Shown in pieces: positions 9,430 to 23,852 of a DNA stretch of 26,487 nucleotides (the first letter of the stretch is position 1; each line of letters begins with the position of its first letter). A program made the position numbers and the translations under genes. The stretch is taken from the IMG/VR virus record IMGVR_UViG_3300044608_002724, positions 1-26,487 of that record; one strand, 5' to 3'. This stretch comes from a virus. The notes under the pieces are model-generated. The model was not told the origin of the DNA, did not search any database, and worked only from the letters and a program-made list of their open reading frames with translations.

Positions 9430-9503
9430 GCTCCCATAGATTAACCGGCTAAATCCCCGCCCTTTCAAGGCGGTGACTCGGGGTTCGAGTCCCCGTGGGA
9501 GTA
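9430..9503 (+). tRNA. tRNA-Glu (UUC)
   Basis: Acceptor GCTCCCA/TGGGAGT (one G-T), discriminator A. Anticodon stem CCGCC/GGCGG with loop CTTTCAA (anticodon UUC), T arm CGGGG-TTCGAGT-CCCCG. The D arm is GATT...AATC. It reads GAA. No CCA is encoded. Confidence 0.94.
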
Positions 9504-9512
9504 TTTTATATT

Positions 9513-10190
9513 ATGCTAAACATAAACATACCACATTTTTATTGTTATCTGCGAAAAGAACAAATGTATCAGCACAAAACTCACATAGGTGAGTTTGATA
9601 AAGTTTTGGTTTTTGGTGCTCAATCTTGTTCTGGCAGGGCATTGACATTTCATGTATTGACGGATTATGGTCTTGTGAGAAGCAGGGTCCCCATCCACAT
9701 GCTTTGCCACAAGACAGATTCTTCAGTTTTTCCTTTGGATTATTTGCAGCTTTGGGATTGTTTTGATGAAAAAGTAACTGTTACTGAATTTGACGCATTG
9801 ACAGATACTAGATCTAAAATCGTATTGAAAGATGGTTCCGAACACTGGGGAAAGTACATGATGACTTTCGACTGGTTTAGAAATTCTTATTCGGATGAAC
9901 CTTCGCAATATAAATGCTTGCACATGTTCAAGTTGGATAACGGGAATTTTACACTACAGCCAAACAATAGAATTAAATGGAAATGCATGTCATTTGTTAC
10001 AAAGCCATTTCCTGAAAAACCAGATTATTTGGTTGATGATAAGGCGTGGATTTGTGAAGACCAGAGTGATCGTTGGATTATAAATTCACACGACAGTTCA
10101 TATTACTATACCATAGATAAAGTTGATATTGTTGATCCGGAGAAGAAAAACGAACAGCACGGGGGTTCGAATCCCCCCGGTTCCATTTGA
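9513..10190 (+). CDS. Conserved hypothetical phage protein, 225 aa
   Basis: ATG 9513 is 10 nt after tRNA-Glu and lacks a Shine-Dalgarno sequence. The protein begins MLNINIPHFYCYLRKEQMY and contains VFGAQSCSGRALTFHVLTDY, SRVPIHMLCHK, LDYLQLWDCFDE, HWGKYMMTFDW and LDNGNFTLQPNNRIKW. This pattern is familiar to me from many T4-like cyanophage genomes, always without a function. It is soluble, with scattered Cys and aromatic residues. The last ~13 codons (EQHGGSNPPGSI) run through the T arm and acceptor strand of the permuted tmRNA, so either the C-terminal tail is dispensable or RNA processing destroys this mRNA. Confidence 0.75.
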   Translation: MLNINIPHFYCYLRKEQMYQHKTHIGEFDKVLVFGAQSCSGRALTFHVLTDYGLVRSRVPIHMLCHKTDSSVFPLDYLQLWDCFDEKVTVTEFDALTDTRSKIVLKDGSEHWGKYMMTFDWFRNSYSDEPSQYKCLHMFKLDNGNFTLQPNNRIKWKCMSFVTKPFPEKPDYLVDDKAWICEDQSDRWIINSHDSSYYYTIDKVDIVDPEKKNEQHGGSNPPGSI

Positions 10191-14057: not shown

Positions 14058-14065
14058 TTAGCCAA
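14043..14065. terminator. Bidirectional hairpin between convergent genes
   Basis: TTGGCTAAT (14043-14051), loop GAATA, ATTAGCCAA (14057-14065): nine perfect pairs overlapping the stop codons of gene 32 (14055-14057) and the minus-strand gene (14058-14060). T-tracts are short (AAATT on plus, CTTTT on minus), so termination efficiency is uncertain. Confidence 0.6.
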
Positions 14066-15230
14066 AAATTCTTCTCCAATTCGGCAGAAATGCCGTCTCA
14101 ATGGCCACCTTTTCGAAGGTGGTCATTTGTTTATTGGTAATATTAGTACTAATGTTGTTTACTACTGCACCACCACCATTTCCACCTTCCATTTGCACTT
14201 CTCCGCCAGTCATTTGCTCTCTTGCTTCTTGGTTTTTATTTTCGGTTATTTTTTCAGTTTGTGATTGTCGGGTTGCCTTTGCAGCTGCATCGATACTATT
14301 TGGTCCAGAAACCGGAGATACTTCTACTCCGCCGTTTTTTGTTGAAGATACAATCTCTGCAGATCCATTTTTGGCATCACCTGCCATGGCAATTGGAGTT
14401 GGTTGATTTACAACCACACTATTGGGACCTGCCGCCATCATAGATCCACCTTCAGCAAATGAGACAAATGATTTTTCATGCTTGGGAGAAAACACATATT
14501 TTACTTTTTTACTTTCATAAAAATGCGGTTTTCTTTCTATTGAGGTTTTATGAAAAGCTGAACTAGATGTGCTTTTTATTTCAGTATTATTAACTGGATT
14601 TGTGTTAGTGTTATTTTGTATTACTGTTTGTTTTTCTTTATTTGATTGGTCGTTATTTAATGTCGAATTATATTTTATTGAAAGATTTGCAGATGGCTCT
14701 ACAATGGTATTTTTTATATCTGATTTATTAGTCACAACTGAATTTGGTGTATTGTATTCATTTTTCCATAAATTTTCGGCAGAATCTATTTTGTTCTGGA
14801 TTGTGTTTATGTTCTTTTCGATTTTAGGAGAAGGAAAATTAAATAATTTATCGTTTTTAACCACTGTGGGATTTTTTCCCATAAAGGTGTTCATTATCGA
14901 AATTTTTTTATTTTGTTCCGTTATTCTGTTGGAATTATCTACTAAGGATTTGCTGTTTGATGTGTTTGTTGGGCTGGAACCATTTTTAATATTTTTAGTA
15001 TTATAGGTTACATTATTAATTGTAGTTTTTGACGGCAATTTATTAATTTGAAATAATTCTTTAATTTTTCCAAATAGATCACCAGAAAAATTATTATTTT
15101 CTTTTTTTGGCTCCTCAATTTTTGGAAGACTGTCTTGATATTTTGGGGAAATGTCAATCGGATCCTTTTTTTGTAAGGTAGGATCCTCTTTTTTAATTTG
15201 TCTTCCTTCAAATCTTGGTAAATTAGGCAT
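14058..15230 (-). CDS. Asn/Lys-rich, largely disordered probable baseplate-module protein
   Basis: A 390-residue protein in the minus-strand baseplate operon; its ATG overlaps the stop of the gp26 frameshift extension (shared ATGCCTAA). Residues 1-50 are charged (MPNLPRFEGRQIKKEDPTLQ), 70-230 are low-complexity Asn/Ser/Thr, 250-350 are Gly/Ala-rich (EGGSMMAAGPNSVVVNQPTP), and the C-terminus (TFEKVAIETAFLPNWRRIFG) looks folded. There is no membrane segment or signal peptide. The position next to gp26 and gp4 homologues suggests a tail or hub assembly protein; I do not recognise a family. Confidence 0.7.
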   Translation of the reverse strand: MPNLPRFEGRQIKKEDPTLQKKDPIDISPKYQDSLPKIEEPKKENNNFSGDLFGKIKELFQINKLPSKTTINNVTYNTKNIKNGSSPTNTSNSKSLVDNSNRITEQNKKISIMNTFMGKNPTVVKNDKLFNFPSPKIEKNINTIQNKIDSAENLWKNEYNTPNSVVTNKSDIKNTIVEPSANLSIKYNSTLNNDQSNKEKQTVIQNNTNTNPVNNTEIKSTSSSAFHKTSIERKPHFYESKKVKYVFSPKHEKSFVSFAEGGSMMAAGPNSVVVNQPTPIAMAGDAKNGSAEIVSSTKNGGVEVSPVSGPNSIDAAAKATRQSQTEKITENKNQEAREQMTGGEVQMEGGNGGGAVVNNISTNITNKQMTTFEKVAIETAFLPNWRRIFG

Positions 15231-15408
15231 TTCTTTCCGTTCTCTTTCTATTTTCTTCCTGGATGTAGTGCCTCAATTGGGACACATAAATCTCTCTTTC
15301 AAATGGCATCATGTTTTCTATATCACTTAACGACCATTTATGAATATGCATAAGATTGAAATTCAATCTATAATAACTAACGAGATTTATATGACCGAGG
15401 CTAATTCG
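15223..15408 (-). CDS. -1 frame extension of gp26, expected as a frameshift fusion
   Basis: Sixty-one codons in the -1 frame follow directly from the slippery heptamer: RISLGHINLVSYYRLNFNLM, then HIHKWSLSDIENMMPFEREI, then YVSQLRHYIQEENRK. The segment has the look of a conserved tail-assembly domain (PFEREIYV core with aromatic helices) and continues without a stop from the gp26 frame crossing point to TAA 15223-15225. An internal ATG (15351) could give a separate 42-residue protein, but it has no ribosome-binding site and would lose the SLGHINLVSYY part. The fusion would be 291 residues. The stop overlaps the next gene's start. Confidence 0.7.
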   Translation of the reverse strand, partial: RISLGHINLVSYYRLNFNLMHIHKWSLSDIENMMPFEREIYVSQLRHYIQEENRKRTERNA

Positions 15409-16097
15409 AAAAAAGAGTCAATTCCATTAAACTTAACGCTTCTGCTAACTCCGTCCTTAGTCTTATAAGGTAATTCTAATTCTAATTTGGGAATTTTTCT
15501 GAAAAATTCAATTAAAATATTATATTGATCCATGGTAAGAGAATCGAAAAATTCTTCGATGTCGTCTTCGCTGGTATCATTTTTTGTTATTGAATCAGTA
15601 GATGTTTGAAATTCAACAAAACAGTTTGCAAATAATTTTTTCAAATCATCATCGGTTTCTTTTTCTATGTAATAATTCAAATCCGGTGATTTTAACAATA
15701 ACACCATTCCATTACCAAATTTTACTTTGTATATATTTTCTATTTTTTCATTTGGTTTAAATAATGATATATCGCATTTCAAATTTATTTTTTCATTAGT
15801 CTCAGGACAGATTATTTGAAAGTCAAAGACCTCGCTAACGGACTTTGATCTCAAGTTTAAATATGCCATTTGAGCATCTATTAAACTTAAATTGCCTGCA
15901 TCTTTTATATCATGATAGCAATTTTCTATTATATTTTTCATGGCTTTTGCCATAGATGACACAGATCCTTCACTTTGTGCCAAAAGTAAATTTTTTTCTT
16001 CTTTTACCGTCATTGGTCTAAATTTATACTTTTTATTTGATGCCGGTAATGTCACTTCAAATATTGGTAATGATTTTTTTAAAATTTCAGTTAACAT
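15387..16097 (-). CDS. 26: gp26-like baseplate hub assembly protein
   Basis: A 236-residue protein of the T4_baseplate (gp26) family. The N-terminal pattern is characteristic: FEVTLPASNKKYKFRPMTVK, then EEKNLLLAQSEG, KAMKNIIENC and AYLNLRSKSVSEVFDFQIIC, with a C-P-E-T-N turn. In T4, gp26 acts in assembly of the central hub. Near the C-terminus, DSFFELASVI ends this frame, but a slippery heptamer over the two Phe codons allows a -1 product with 61 extra residues. That layout resembles the G/GT tail-assembly chaperones of lambda-like phages. It follows the 194-residue tail protein by 6 nt in a four- to five-gene operon started by gp4. Confidence 0.82.
   Translation of the reverse strand: MLTEILKKSLPIFEVTLPASNKKYKFRPMTVKEEKNLLLAQSEGSVSSMAKAMKNIIENCYHDIKDAGNLSLIDAQMAYLNLRSKSVSEVFDFQIICPETNEKINLKCDISLFKPNEKIENIYKVKFGNGMVLLLKSPDLNYYIEKETDDDLKKLFANCFVEFQTSTDSITKNDTSEDDIEEFFDSLTMDQYNILIEFFRKIPKLELELPYKTKDGVSRSVKFNGIDSFFELASVI
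15408..15414 (-). promoter_or_regulatory. -1 ribosomal frameshift site (slippery heptamer)
   Basis: On the minus strand the sequence is T TTT TTC, in phase with the gp26 frame (TCT TTT TTC GAA), the canonical X-XXY-YYZ heptamer. A 7-bp hairpin (AGATTGA-ATT-TCAATCT) lies ~40 nt downstream, rather far for a stimulator. Confidence 0.7.
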
Positions 16098-16103
16098 ATT
16101 TTA

Positions 16104-16688
16104 TTAAAGTCTATTGGACTCTACTCCTACTGTAAATGCTATTGTCATAATTTGATACGCTGGTTCAGATTCTGCCGCGAATTTAAAAGGCATAATTTTC
16201 TCTATAAAGCAGTTATTGTAAATATATGGTCTTTGTCTTTCTTCTTGATAATTTACAGGATATATTATTATATTATAACCATATATGTTATTTTTTTGCG
16301 GTCCTTTCCATTTAAAATAGGTGTCACCATTTTTGTTTCCTGGAAAGTCGAATTGTGTTCTATTATAATTTAAAAAACTGAATAAATTCCATTCACCTCC
16401 CCACTCACCCTCTTTGGAGGGCACCATAAATGTCAATAATAAATTATCTTCATATTTGATGCCTACTGGTTGTTTGTATTCCCAATTTCCTCTCCAATAA
16501 GTGTTTGTATAAAATTGATATTTTGGTCCAGGAAGAGTTGCTTCTATTACATATCTTGATGCATCCAAAATCAATTCTCCCTTACCAGCTTCATAAATAT
16601 AACAATCATATAAATGGGCAGATTGTAACCCTATAGTGTTTACGAGTTCTATTATAGAAGTTATTGAGTTTGGATTTCGTGTTGTCAT
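16104..16688 (-). CDS. Tail-tube-fold-like baseplate protein, 194 aa
   Basis: The start overlaps the stop of gp4 (ATGA). The sequence alternates beta strands: ILDASRYVIEATLPGPKYQF, LLLTFMVPSKEGEW, GYNIIIYPVNYQEE, then NNCFIEKIMPFKFAAESEPA and MTIAFTVGVES. The final pattern (N-C-F-x-x-K-I-x-P-F, then a strand pair) recalls the tail-tube protein family (gp19 and its baseplate relatives). A small hub or tube-initiation protein is therefore plausible. No exact family match is recalled, so function stays tentative while the coding call is firm. Confidence 0.7.
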   Translation of the reverse strand: MTTRNPNSITSIIELVNTIGLQSAHLYDCYIYEAGKGELILDASRYVIEATLPGPKYQFYTNTYWRGNWEYKQPVGIKYEDNLLLTFMVPSKEGEWGGEWNLFSFLNYNRTQFDFPGNKNGDTYFKWKGPQKNNIYGYNIIIYPVNYQEERQRPYIYNNCFIEKIMPFKFAAESEPAYQIMTIAFTVGVESNRL

Positions 16689-17913: not shown

Positions 17914-18801
17914 ATGAAATATTTTACTTTTTTCGACAAAATTCAATACCAGTTTGCAGATGATAGTTTACAGATGATGAATATTTTTAATAGACCCTCT
18001 GCAAATGTATCATTTGAGTTTCCTATTTCTCAGCCATACACCTATTTTATTGAAGACGGTAATACTCCCGATGATGTCGCAAGAAAAGTTTATAATGATG
18101 ACAATTACTTTTGGTTTGTTTTGCTTCAAAATAAAATAGTTGATTTTTATAAGGAATGGCCAAGTTCATACAGTCATTGGAAGGATCAGTTATTAACTAT
18201 TTACACGGCAGATACTTTTTTTTCTCCACATAAATTAGATGTGCAGATTGGAGATATAGTATCAAAGGTTGGAACAAGAGAAATAGCCGGTGTCACATTA
18301 GAAATCGACTTTGAAAATGCTGGAGTTGTAAGTGGGGTTGATCCATTCTTAAGATCATTTGATGTGCATAGAATAGCCGGTGAGATAAAGGAAAATAATA
18401 ATTATTGGATTCTAAGAAAATCTGGATTTAGCTATAGAAAAATAAATCCCCCAAATTCGACCGCAGCACATGTCCTTTATAGAAAAGAATTAAAACTGAA
18501 TGCAGGAGTTGAGTTCTATTCAATAGACAGCAAGAATAATAATATAATGATATCTCCATATTCAGATCCAAGTGGCACTAATTTAGTTTCATCTGGTGTC
18601 GATAATATTTTTGATTATCCAGATACTATTTTATCAAAATATATCAAGAAAGAATTACCTGGTTATATAATCCCAAGATCATTTTCAGACGCGAAAGAAA
18701 GAGAATGGTTGTTTAAGAAAAATATACAAGTAATTCCTATAAGTAATCTTACAAATCTCAATAATGCATATTCTGATCTTTTCGTGAAGGATTCTATATG
18801 A
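17914..18801 (+). CDS. 53: gp53-like baseplate wedge protein
   Basis: A 295-residue protein with the gp53 signature near residues 40-80: YTYFIEDGNTPDDVARKVYN, then NYFWFVLLQNKIVDFYKEWP, a LysM-like segment. The N-terminus (MKYFTFFDKIQYQFADDSLQ) and the C-terminal YSDLF are typical. In T4, gp53 joins wedge to hub and promotes assembly of the six wedges into the baseplate. AAGGA lies 13 nt upstream, a wide spacing. Its stop overlaps the start of the giant hub gene (ATGA), so translation is coupled. Confidence 0.9.
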   Translation: MKYFTFFDKIQYQFADDSLQMMNIFNRPSANVSFEFPISQPYTYFIEDGNTPDDVARKVYNDDNYFWFVLLQNKIVDFYKEWPSSYSHWKDQLLTIYTADTFFSPHKLDVQIGDIVSKVGTREIAGVTLEIDFENAGVVSGVDPFLRSFDVHRIAGEIKENNNYWILRKSGFSYRKINPPNSTAAHVLYRKELKLNAGVEFYSIDSKNNNIMISPYSDPSGTNLVSSGVDNIFDYPDTILSKYIKKELPGYIIPRSFSDAKEREWLFKKNIQVIPISNLTNLNNAYSDLFVKDSI

Positions 18802-21800
18802 TTAATACACCATACACTAAAGCACAAAAGATATTTAATTTAGTTGAAGTTTATATTCAACAAAGAGACGGAAAAGGAGCAAATAAAGGTGAAAAAATTT
18901 ATTTGTTCAAAGGAAAATATCCATTCGTTTCCAGTTCCTTTCAAGAAGAAATAACATCCACACAACTACCTGTAATTCAATCTATCATGATACATGAAGA
19001 TATGAAAGCCCCTTCTCTGAAGGGAAGGTTAAATTTTGTGGACAGATTGAACATCGTAGAAAGTTTAAAACTAAGTCCATTAGATTTATTGTATATAAAG
19101 GTCATGGAAGAGGAAACATATCTTCCTGGAATTTCTTCGCCTAAAATTAAAAATCTTGTGTTTTCAATAACATCGGTTGCGCAATTAACACAAGAAATTC
19201 ATGCAAGTACTATAGGTCCAAATACACACACCAGAGAAGTTCAGCTAGAATTTTGTTCAAATGAGCATTACATTTTAAATTATAGCTACTTTGATTATAT
19301 GGATGAAGATTTTATAGGTCCTATATCAGGCAAGAATGGACTCATCCAGTACATTTCAGACAAAGTGTTCAAGAAAAATGGAACTCCATTTTCTACCGCA
19401 AGCGTAGATATAAAAGCAGATGAAACATCAAATTACATTTATTTGAAAAAATATCACAATTTTTATCCTTGGGGAAAACCTACTTTTCCTCCTCTTCTGT
19501 CATCATTGATGCAAATGTTGACAGAACACTCTGTAGATAAAAATAATCCAAATGCAGCTAATTTTATGTTTTGGCAAGACTTGGATGGTTGGAATTTCAG
19601 GTCTGTGGAATCAATAATAAAGGAATATCCAGAGCCTGTCGCTGTTTACAAAGTTACAACAAATACAGATGACCCGACTAGAATATTGGCATTTGAATTT
19701 AATATAGAGGGTGATGTAGAAACTGATTTCTTCCAGCTTATAAAACACGGAGCATTTGGCTCAAATTATTTGTTTGTCGAACCGAAATATGAACAAGATC
19801 CATACGCAAGATTCTTAGATACATCGGATTCCCATGAAATAAAACAAATAAATTACGAATATATCAAAGATAATGATAAATGGCTAAAGATAGAACAATT
19901 ATCTGTTCTGGATGATTCTGAATATGTTCCAAATTGGAATAAAAACAGGCAATATGACCAATTCTATGGATATTTTAATTCTGGATTTTATAACAAGAAA
20001 AAGAAAGTCGATTGGGAATATCATGGATATAGTTACTCTAACAGGCAAGAGGATACGCTCTGGCAAACAGTTTTTGATATTACCGATATGGACGGTGAGA
20101 TACTAAGAAAGATTCAGAAGGAAATAAAAGAACCTCTGGTAAAGCATAGAAAAGAATATGCTAAGAAGATGAACCTGAAAGAAAAGTGGAAAGTCTATAG
20201 ATGTTCTATTTGTTGTGCTGGTTTGATGGACGATGATATGGGGTCTACCTTATCAAATGCGTTATCATCCTACGAGATTGTTGCCGCTGGATCATTCACA
20301 GATGTTTTGAATTATGATGGAGCAACTAAAGTACAGGGAAGCACAGATCCATTCCAACGCAGTGGAATTACATTAAGTTATGATTTGAATGAATATCCAT
20401 ATAGTCTGAGCTTGGGTGAATTTTTCAATCTTGAACAGCAACCAGATGTATTCACAAAATATAGATTTGACTTGGAAATTACAAGATATAATAAACTATT
20501 AGACATCTTAAATAAGAACATTCAAGCAAGAGAAAATCGAAAAGAACAATACAATTCTTCATACGCTGCGTACCAAGCCAAATGGAATGTGAAAAAAACA
20601 GTGTGTGAGGATTCTTCTTGTATTGGAAAAGAATGTACATGTCCTAGCACCAGTCCCAGTGAAATAAAAGATAAAGTAGACTCGATAATAGCATATGAAG
20701 AATCTTTAAAACGGCATGAACAAGAAATTTTAGATCTTCCTAGTACCGTGTCTATACAAAGTACTATAGAAAAATTAGAGCAACTAAAACAAGAATTTGA
20801 ATTATTATATGAAAGTTATTGGAATAGAAGAGCATTTTTCTTTTCAAAAGATATAGATTACTCTTTTCTAAAATCAGGAAATAATCTTTTTAATATTAAA
20901 AGTATAAAAAGAATGCGAATTAAAGGTAGTAAATATGAAAAATTTGCTACCAGAAAAGCATTTTCTGGATATACATTAGACAATGGCTTGACTTCAACAT
21001 ATGAATATACAGTTCCAAAAGAATTGTGTGGTGAAGGAGAAACAGCTAATCCGTATTATGACAGAAAATATAAAAATACTGTAAAAGCAGATAAATGGGA
21101 TTCGTTCGAAAATCCACTTTCAAAATTTCCATACACCGAAAATAATGATATCGGTAAAGGACCGATATGGTATAGAAACTGGAAAATAAAATATACTCTT
21201 TTATATCAAACTGATTATTGTTTAAATTCTCCTGTTAGTGATTGCTGCAATGGGCTTGTTCCTGTTTGTGTATGTACATGCAGTGGTCCACTTACGCAAT
21301 CGTGCAATCCTTCACCGGGAGCATTTGGAGGAACCCCGCCTTGCAGTACATTAGGGGAAGAGGGCGTTGATTATTACTTTGGTGAATGCGATCAAATAAA
21401 TACGGTTCCTTGGTATGAAGATTGTGTGAACAGAAATTATGGAGCATGTGTAACGATAACCTCAGATGGAACTCCAGATTGTGGTGCATATGCTTTTAGT
21501 AATATAGCAGAAGAATGTTGCGAAGGGGATACAGTCAGGTTTTTTGATAATATTTCTTCCGCATGTGAATTTGTAATAGGAGATGGACCTGGATTTGGTG
21601 GATGTTTTCCAACAGATCTAGCTCCACAAGTTTTGGGATGTGACCAAGGTAATAATAATTTTGTAAACGGTGATAATGATCAGGGTGGAGTTGCAGGGAC
21701 ACAAGACTCACAAAGTTCTACATGTGAATACAATCAAACTACATCATCTTCATATAATGTAGAATTAGAAATGTATGCAGAAAGTTTTTCAAATGATTTT

Positions 21801-23852
21801 AACTCAAATGTATTAACATTTCCGGTAGAAATTAGATACCATATATTGGCTAAATTAAAAGATAAATGCAATGAAGATAAGATGTGTAGAGGTGTGGAAA
21901 TTACCGATATAACACCAGTTGATAGTGAACCTAAATTGCTACATCCTTGGGCGGCGGATGAATTGACACCTGGATTTGATAATGATGATTACATAGATTA
22001 TAAAAAATCATCATCATTATTTGTTGATGATTTATCTGAGCTAAAGGCACCATCTTTGAATCTTGAAGAAATGGAAAGTTACGTCAGAGTAGAATTTAAA
22101 TCTCCAATAGGTTTAGAGTCTCTTAAAGATTTTCCAGAAGGTTTTATTAATACACCCGGCTCTGAATATTTTATGCCGTATATTGTGTTATTAACAGCGG
22201 GTCCATTTGGTACAGAATCAGCAAAAGCAAATGTTTCTGTTATAGGACAAGATCCTTATGGTTTTGATGTAGCGGTTAAGAAAACAAAAAATAGAGATGA
22301 TTTTGCAAAAATGAATTTGCATGATTATGGTGCAGATCCAGTATATCAAACAAATTCTTGTAATGTATTCAGTACTGCTACTTCTTGGTTAAGACATGCA
22401 CAGAATTTAATTTTCTATAAATCAAATAATTCTCTCGGTGATATTTTTACCCCAATGGGAATACAGGATATATTTGCTGCATCTTCTTTACAGAGAAGTG
22501 TACCAGTTAAAACTTGGTGGGATCTTTGGGTTTCTTTACCGCCTATTGCAATGAGCACTTTTTATAATAGAATAAATGTTAATGATACAGACAGAGGAAG
22601 GGTCCCTTTCTATGAAGAAGGATCATTAATATCACAACCAAAGACAGTAGATCCTTATCAAAATGATCCGGCAGTATTTGAAGTGGGATGGCCATTCTTT
22701 GCTATGCCAGACACGGAAAACATAGCAGCGGGTGCATATCCAGGAAATGCTGCCATAACTCCAAATGATGTATCTCAAAATTCTTTGAGTACGGGAGAGT
22801 TTATTCAAAAGCTTTCTCCTACCCAGAATAATAGTCTAGAAGGTGATCCTACTATAAAGGATCCATCAAATGTCAATTATTATTTCTCCGAAATAGTCGA
22901 TATCAGAAATATTAATCCCACAAAACAATATCCAGTTGTTTCTTATCCTGTCGGAACTATGATCTATGGGGGAGCTGGTTTCACTGTTGGACAAGTCTGG
23001 AAGCACGACAGTTCAAGATTGACAGAATATGGAATGGTACAATTAAGTTCAGATTCTATGCCATCTATAATTAGTTTGGTTGGAAACATAGGTGGTAATG
23101 TAGAAGACATTCAAAAATACTATAATTGGGTGAGTGATAAAGTCATAGATTGGTATCAAAACACAATATTTGATAATAATTTCTCGGCACAGTTTGTGGT
23201 ATTCTCTAAACAAACATCCGGTGGTTGCAAAGATTATCCATGCTCAAATCCAGATGGATTTATTGATAATACAAATTGTCCAACCAGCGATCCTTTATGC
23301 AATTGCCCATGTCAAGAACTCAGACCAGATAAAATAGTAAAAGTTAAAGATAGATTTACTGGTCAAATGATTCCGGCATTAACTGCAGATTTCGGTCCAG
23401 AACCTTCATCTTTAGAATTAGCAGAATTGAAAGAAAAGACCAAGGAATGCACCTTAATAAAGAGAGTGTTGGGAGAGGAATGGTTGGGGTGTGTATGGGA
23501 AGACCCAACAAGTCCTTATAATTGTAGTTGTCCATGTATAGGAACTAGGTTCTATGACTATATGAAATACAATAGAACCCAATCTACATTCTGGAGCACT
23601 CCATTAGAGACTCCATTATACAGAAATGCACAAATGGTTCTTTTGATGTCGAATAAATTAAAAATAACCGTTCCTGGTGATTTGGCAATTAAGAGTGGAC
23701 AAATTATAGAAATAGACGGAACCGTGGGTGAAATAAAGAAAAGATATAATGGAAAGTGGTTAGTAATGGAAATTGAGCATTTGATGGGAACATCAAGCCA
23801 TGTAATGAATCTAATATTAGTACGGGATAGCAATTCAAATACAAACTCATAA
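18798..23852 (+). CDS. Giant gp27-like baseplate hub protein with Cys-rich insertions
   Basis: A 1684-residue protein. The N-terminal part resembles the T4-like hub (gp27): a YLKKYHNFYPWGKPTFPPLL segment (~residue 215), then FMFWQDLDGWNFRSVESIIK. The C-terminal end (KITVPGDLAIKSGQIIEID, then YNGKWLVMEIEHLM) is the usual small beta-barrel end of these hubs. Between lie large insertions: a coiled-coil (~560-680) and five Cys clusters near residues 469, 602-616, 808-948, 1476-1506 and 1551-1580, with recurring C-x-C-x-C patterns (CVCTC, CNCPC, CSCPC). T4 gp27 has 391 residues, so this is over four times larger. It lies between gp53 and gp25. The Cys clusters may bind metal or form disulfides; there is no evidence which. 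I see no lysozyme motif. Confidence 0.78.
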   Translation: MINTPYTKAQKIFNLVEVYIQQRDGKGANKGEKIYLFKGKYPFVSSSFQEEITSTQLPVIQSIMIHEDMKAPSLKGRLNFVDRLNIVESLKLSPLDLLYIKVMEEETYLPGISSPKIKNLVFSITSVAQLTQEIHASTIGPNTHTREVQLEFCSNEHYILNYSYFDYMDEDFIGPISGKNGLIQYISDKVFKKNGTPFSTASVDIKADETSNYIYLKKYHNFYPWGKPTFPPLLSSLMQMLTEHSVDKNNPNAANFMFWQDLDGWNFRSVESIIKEYPEPVAVYKVTTNTDDPTRILAFEFNIEGDVETDFFQLIKHGAFGSNYLFVEPKYEQDPYARFLDTSDSHEIKQINYEYIKDNDKWLKIEQLSVLDDSEYVPNWNKNRQYDQFYGYFNSGFYNKKKKVDWEYHGYSYSNRQEDTLWQTVFDITDMDGEILRKIQKEIKEPLVKHRKEYAKKMNLKEKWKVYRCSICCAGLMDDDMGSTLSNALSSYEIVAAGSFTDVLNYDGATKVQGSTDPFQRSGITLSYDLNEYPYSLSLGEFFNLEQQPDVFTKYRFDLEITRYNKLLDILNKNIQARENRKEQYNSSYAAYQAKWNVKKTVCEDSSCIGKECTCPSTSPSEIKDKVDSIIAYEESLKRHEQEILDLPSTVSIQSTIEKLEQLKQEFELLYESYWNRRAFFFSKDIDYSFLKSGNNLFNIKSIKRMRIKGSKYEKFATRKAFSGYTLDNGLTSTYEYTVPKELCGEGETANPYYDRKYKNTVKADKWDSFENPLSKFPYTENNDIGKGPIWYRNWKIKYTLLYQTDYCLNSPVSDCCNGLVPVCVCTCSGPLTQSCNPSPGAFGGTPPCSTLGEEGVDYYFGECDQINTVPWYEDCVNRNYGACVTITSDGTPDCGAYAFSNIAEECCEGDTVRFFDNISSACEFVIGDGPGFGGCFPTDLAPQVLGCDQGNNNFVNGDNDQGGVAGTQDSQSSTCEYNQTTSSSYNVELEMYAESFSNDFNSNVLTFPVEIRYHILAKLKDKCNEDKMCRGVEITDITPVDSEPKLLHPWAADELTPGFDNDDYIDYKKSSSLFVDDLSELKAPSLNLEEMESYVRVEFKSPIGLESLKDFPEGFINTPGSEYFMPYIVLLTAGPFGTESAKANVSVIGQDPYGFDVAVKKTKNRDDFAKMNLHDYGADPVYQTNSCNVFSTATSWLRHAQNLIFYKSNNSLGDIFTPMGIQDIFAASSLQRSVPVKTWWDLWVSLPPIAMSTFYNRINVNDTDRGRVPFYEEGSLISQPKTVDPYQNDPAVFEVGWPFFAMPDTENIAAGAYPGNAAITPNDVSQNSLSTGEFIQKLSPTQNNSLEGDPTIKDPSNVNYYFSEIVDIRNINPTKQYPVVSYPVGTMIYGGAGFTVGQVWKHDSSRLTEYGMVQLSSDSMPSIISLVGNIGGNVEDIQKYYNWVSDKVIDWYQNTIFDNNFSAQFVVFSKQTSGGCKDYPCSNPDGFIDNTNCPTSDPLCNCPCQELRPDKIVKVKDRFTGQMIPALTADFGPEPSSLELAELKEKTKECTLIKRVLGEEWLGCVWEDPTSPYNCSCPCIGTRFYDYMKYNRTQSTFWSTPLETPLYRNAQMVLLMSNKLKITVPGDLAIKSGQIIEIDGTVGEIKKRYNGKWLVMEIEHLMGTSSHVMNLILVRDSNSNTNS

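Follow-up and report, generated by a model that had tools for sequence, protein, structure and literature searches.

Probable synthesis of two tail assembly chaperones from one gp26-type gene by −1 ribosomal frameshifting in a viral genome

Gene layout and the predicted frameshift site

The stretch of viral DNA analysed here (the window; IMG/VR record IMGVR_UViG_3300044608_002724, 26,487 nucleotides) carries on its minus strand a gene of the T4 gp26 type, which contains a run of Ts shortly before its stop codon and is followed by an open −1 frame. This raises the question of whether the gene encodes one protein or two. We consider it highly probable (roughly 0.92) that this single gene produces two tail assembly chaperones through a −1 ribosomal frameshift on T TTT TTC. 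The case is built from sequence comparison, resting on the heptamer, a conserved open −1 frame under selection, the lack of an initiation signal, paralogy in T4 and the upstream gene order; the shifting of ribosomes, its rate and the binding roles of the products are inferred.

The short form, the analogue of TAC-N and of lambda G, is encoded by positions 15387..16097 (minus strand). It consists of 236 amino acids and matches PF12322 (E 5.9e-43) and phrog_150 (E 8.6e-46), and its PF12322 score of 147.5 bits, against a curated cut-off of 24.5, places it in the T4 gp26 family. The slippery heptamer T TTT TTC lies in phase with gp26 at 15408..15414 (minus strand) and is followed by six sense codons and the TAA stop at 15387..15389 (GAA TTA GCC TCG GTC ATA TAA), so that TTC is eight codons from the stop, the stop counted. 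The −1 frame entered at this point is open for 61 codons (15226..15408, minus strand) and ends at a TAA at 15223-15225. This C-terminal extension, RISLGHINLVSYY...TERNA after the slip, is the analogue of TAC-C and of lambda T. It matches phrog_634, annotated as 'baseplate hub assembly catalyst' (gp51), with an E value of 1.3e-25, and the match begins at the first residue of the profile. The predicted gp26–gp51 fusion, corresponding to TAC-NC or lambda GT, would span 15223..16097 (minus strand, stop included) and contain 291 amino acids. Its junction would be recognizable by the predicted peptide FNGIDSFFR, the 0-frame counterpart of which is FNGIDSFFELASVI. Direct rereading of the coordinates and lengths agrees with an earlier sequence-only reading, which had placed the heptamer eight codons before the stop and predicted a 61-codon −1 frame and a fusion of about 291 residues.

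In the favoured mechanism, most ribosomes would terminate at the gp26 stop to give the 236-residue short form, and a minority would slip back by one base on T TTT TTC, continue for a further 61 codons and give the 291-residue fusion. The systems of lambda (G/GT) and T4 (separate gp26 and gp51) suggest by analogy that the tape-measure or hub substrate may be held by the part shared by both products, and that the extension may bring in the tube-side partner.

Conservation of the heptamer and selection on the −1 frame

When the codons of gp26 are shuffled, an in-phase heptamer of the form X XXY YY appears among the last 10 codons in 12% of cases and T TTT TT in 1.9%, and so the heptamer in the window gene alone is only mildly suggestive. 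A tblastn search among phage records found 502 with gp26 and 530 with the extension, mostly cyanophages but also vibriophages and Sinorhizobium phages. In all 95 loci taken from IMG/VR and from named phages, the junction reads T TTT TTN and gp51 comes next in the −1 frame. After the addition of six entries (five named phages and the window) and the removal of near-copies, a set of 83 loci was obtained, spanning cyanophages, vibriophages, Sinorhizobium, Stenotrophomonas and Pseudomonas phages and marine contigs. All 83 keep the six Ts and place gp51 in the −1 frame, the last base of the heptamer being C in 52 loci, T in 27 and A in 4, whereas third codon positions just 5' of the heptamer are close to random. 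A second sample, seeded on gp51 alone and sharing some contigs with the first, has the heptamer in 138 of 138 loci. Other Phe-Phe pairs in the same loci take the heptamer form in only 19 of 315 cases, indicating that retention of the heptamer in the relatives (83/83 and 138/138) goes beyond chance. Since these loci share ancestry and are not independent trials, the argument rests on the variable neighbouring positions and on this Phe-Phe control rather than on the raw counts. In agreement with the sequence-only reading, which would have been contradicted by loss of the heptamer where both frames exist, the heptamer is kept in every relative examined, and this conservation also rules out a sequencing error or a decayed gene. 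The window gp26 is 24-34% identical to its aligned relatives; two contigs that match the window without a difference over 1 kb share its junction and are not independent of it.

A very divergent gp26 was seen in Pseudoalteromonas phage XG4 (L116:2989-3732, unannotated). Its junction reads T TTT TTA (Arg-Phe-Leu), so that the heptamer is kept and the second Phe is lost, and an ORF of 645 amino acids comes next.

Substitution patterns in the relatives show purifying selection on the −1 frame. Codons 2-18 of the extension, which precede the first usable Met of the window, have a pN/pS of 0.26 compared with 1.1 and 1.7 in the other frames, and codons 19-50 have a pN/pS of 0.22. Together with the phrog_634 match, these values bear out the earlier description of the segment as protein-like and conserved. 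They also bear on the possibility that gp51 is an ordinary separate gene with its own start, translated by internal or coupled initiation. Separate gp51 coding sequences are indeed annotated in GenBank for S-PM2, S-SSM7, K566, phiN3 and others, and a start codon (ATG, GTG or TTG) occurs among the first 8 codons after the heptamer in 45 of the 83 relatives. However, none of these early starts (0/83) is accompanied by a Shine-Dalgarno (SD) core of 4 nt or more, and 21 of the 83 have no ATG, GTG or TTG at or before codon 19, yet codons 2-18 are conserved. In the window, the first ATG of the −1 frame is at about codon 20 after the slip and would give a 42-residue product, with a TTG five codons before it, and an SD core is absent at both, consistent with the earlier remark that the segment has no good start. 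A separate gene would also leave the six invariant Ts in gp26 unexplained, and in T4 gp51 the same segment is fused to a gp26 domain in one chain. We therefore regard separate initiation, for which no supported start was found, as improbable.

RNA elements around the heptamer

Across the family, an SD-like purine tract formed by Leu-Glu-Gly codons lies about 10 nt upstream of the heptamer. GAG is used at the key Glu in 35 cases compared with 14.5 expected from codon usage, and the SD-like duplex energy is stronger than codon usage predicts (Wilcoxon p 1.5e-8); no such signal is present in a control segment taken 60 nt upstream. The RNA downstream of the heptamer is more stable than its shuffles (mean z −1.8, control −0.3). 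Uninterrupted helices of at least 8 bp starting at +10 to +17 are present in 31 of 83 loci compared with 5 of 83 in the control; the stems begin at about +12 to +14, and one helix class includes pairs in which both sides vary. The window itself has an SD-like signal equal to the codon-usage null (−3.3 vs −3.2), by simple folding its downstream RNA does not exceed its shuffles in stability (z about 0) and its best downstream helix has 6 bp. The window, in which stimulators were not detected, could frameshift with low efficiency or rely on an element that these analyses do not see.

The family-wide signals help to distinguish ribosomal frameshifting from transcriptional slippage, in which RNA polymerase rather than the ribosome would slip on the T run. 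Six Ts, or seven and more when the last base is T, could in principle allow such slippage, and one additional U would give access to the −1 frame. However, six Ts followed by C are short for this mechanism, and the family carries a ribosomal signature in the X XXY YYZ phasing, the SD-like tract about 10 nt upstream and the stems at +12 to +14, making transcriptional slippage even less probable than separate initiation. The weakest alternative, that the T run merely reflects Phe-Phe coding and common descent without recoding, could draw on the Phe-Phe pair being conserved in frame 0 and opening the aligned gp51 segment in sequences of shared ancestry whose counts are not independent, but it is rejected, as is chance, by the 19/315 control, and the T TTT TTA loci, which keep the heptamer although Phe is changed to Leu, and the separately conserved adjoining −1 frame leave it barely credible.

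Chaperone function, T4 paralogues and gene context

Ribosomal frameshifting at this site would yield a chaperone pair of a kind known from other tailed phages. T4 gp26 and gp51 have been listed as hub-assembly chaperones (PMC3004832), and at least one record names the T4-type gp26 and gp51 'tape measure protein assembly chaperone'. An AlphaFold2 model of the window gp26 has a mean pLDDT of 91.6, and in the PDB it is matched best by 3fgx, with a Z of 8.1, and by 2ob9, the tail assembly chaperone of HK97, which resembles the N-terminal domain of gp26 (Z 7.9, rmsd 3.9 over 85 of 107 residues); the next unrelated entry has a Z of 4.2. Foldseek alone gave E values above 0.5 for this model, and a profile search of solved structures, chaperones included, with gp26 and gp51 returned nothing credible. 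A model of T4-type gp51 finds gp26-type proteins among viral models, and among PDB structures it has no clear match (best Z 4.8), the HK97 chaperone not being listed. Because of this last result and of the Foldseek values, the models give moderate support to a chaperone fold for gp26.

In lambda, HK97 and others, as predicted for the window, a short chaperone and a −1-frameshift fusion are encoded after a tail-tube gene. The lambda heptamer is G GGA AAG, whereas that of the window is T TTT TTC, and the gp26 domain of the window is larger. The gene upstream of gp26 (16104..16688, minus strand, 194 amino acids) is tail-tube-like (phrog_45 or gp54-like): it aligns by hhalign at 98.9% with the phrog_45-type genes at the same place in relatives, and its homologues in two relative loci (L020 and L021) match phrog_45. 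On this side the gene order resembles that of lambda, where G-T comes after V. Taken together with the T4 paralogues described below, the HK97 fold match and the naming in one record, this order supports the earlier suggestion that gp26 and its predicted fusion act as a chaperone pair.

T4 gp26 (208 amino acids) matches phrog_150 up to position 235, and T4 gp51 (249 amino acids) matches phrog_150 up to 280 and phrog_634 as well. In profile comparisons, residues 5-202 of T4-type gp51 align with gp26 (98.1%, E 7.7e-14) and residues 199-249 with the extension, starting at its Phe-Phe pair (96.4%, E 1.3e-9). On these profile alignments, T4 gp26 and gp51 are paralogues equivalent to the short form and the fusion, respectively. 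T4 gp26 ends in ...EFFELL and the window gp26 in ...SFFELASVI, and T4 gp51 carries the gp26 domain and the same extension in one chain. Unlike the window, T4 has two separate genes on opposite strands and no frameshift site at the junction. The relatives of T4 would use frameshifting, in place of which T4 has its two paralogous genes. Vladimirov, Gautam and Davidson are said to have found frameshifting conserved in several T4-like groups, with separate genes in T4's own group.

In a 2016 review, T4 was named as the exception to G-T frameshifting (Atkins 2016), and TAC-N genes of T4-like phages are known to carry polyT frameshift signals (PMC12846349). The work on T4-like tail assembly chaperones cited there (Vladimirov, Gautam & Davidson 2022, Virology 566:9-15) concerns, as far as that citation conveys, the same kind of gene and the same idea as the window, which differs from those systems in being a new, distant member without detected stimulators. 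The TAC loci of Vandenendeviridae and Andersonviridae also resemble the window in their −1 frameshift and polyT (GTTTTT) signal, and their downstream ORF is likewise annotated as a separate gene, although these are different phage families (PMC12846349). Since T4-like chaperones and polyT signals are already published, the frameshift in the window is not new in kind. The present analysis contributes a well-tested further case of a general point already published, with quantified signals; the conservation counts and the statistics on SD-like tracts and stems are its own. Hundreds of T4-like phage genomes carry gp51, listed in the records examined as a separate short gene, and these entries may be reread as the frameshifted half of gp26, that is, of the long chaperone. 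The relevant part of earlier work noted, giving no explanation there, that in cyanophages and vibriophages gp51 is missing the first ~200 residues present in its T4 counterpart (Sullivan 2010, PMC3037559). If gp51 is the frameshifted half of gp26, this difference is explained.

The frameshift arrangement is found in vibriophage phi-pp2, which belongs to the same family as T4, Straboviridae. In an unrooted tree of the shared domain, the frameshifting group is apart from T-even gp26 and gp51 (support 100/99); duplication may have replaced frameshifting. In a more speculative and rather doubtful scenario, duplication in a T-even ancestor, giving a short gp26 and an in-frame gp51 fusion, replaced a frameshift whose rate might set the dose of the next gene. 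Such dosing may be considered because, in frameshifting phages, the gene at the tape-measure position often begins next to the −1-frame stop or overlaps it. Slopekvirus KP15, a Klebsiella phage, has a fusion-type gp51 and a gp26 in tandem on one strand (L111:3001-4295), a possible intermediate of the T-even duplication.

The gene downstream of the extension (14058..15230, minus strand, 390 amino acids) has no profile match, tape-measure families included, and only its position makes it a candidate tape-measure gene. In K566 and S-PM2 the downstream gene partly matches tape-measure families (E 5.8e-7 and 1.2e-16, respectively), but the phi-pp2 counterpart, from the same family (phrog_15654), has no such match. 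Long genes that follow gp51 in other loci (L116, L015 and L017) differ widely in sequence and share their position, and some such genes partly match tape-measure or lytic-domain families. In the window, the end of the −1 frame, stop included, and the beginning of the next gene share 8 nt (15223-15230), and in about half of the 83 relatives the downstream ORF starts at approximately −14 to +5 nt from the gp51 stop, as counted by eye. This closeness would allow coupling of both genes.

Two further genes of the window lie on the plus strand. One (18798-23852) encodes a protein of 1684 amino acids, the C-terminal ~85 residues of which match the tail protein family phrog_350, and its remainder has no PHROGs match. 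By its match to phrog_3704 (E 1e-48), which carries a ferredoxin annotation in PHROGs, the other (9495-10190) is an auxiliary metabolic gene.
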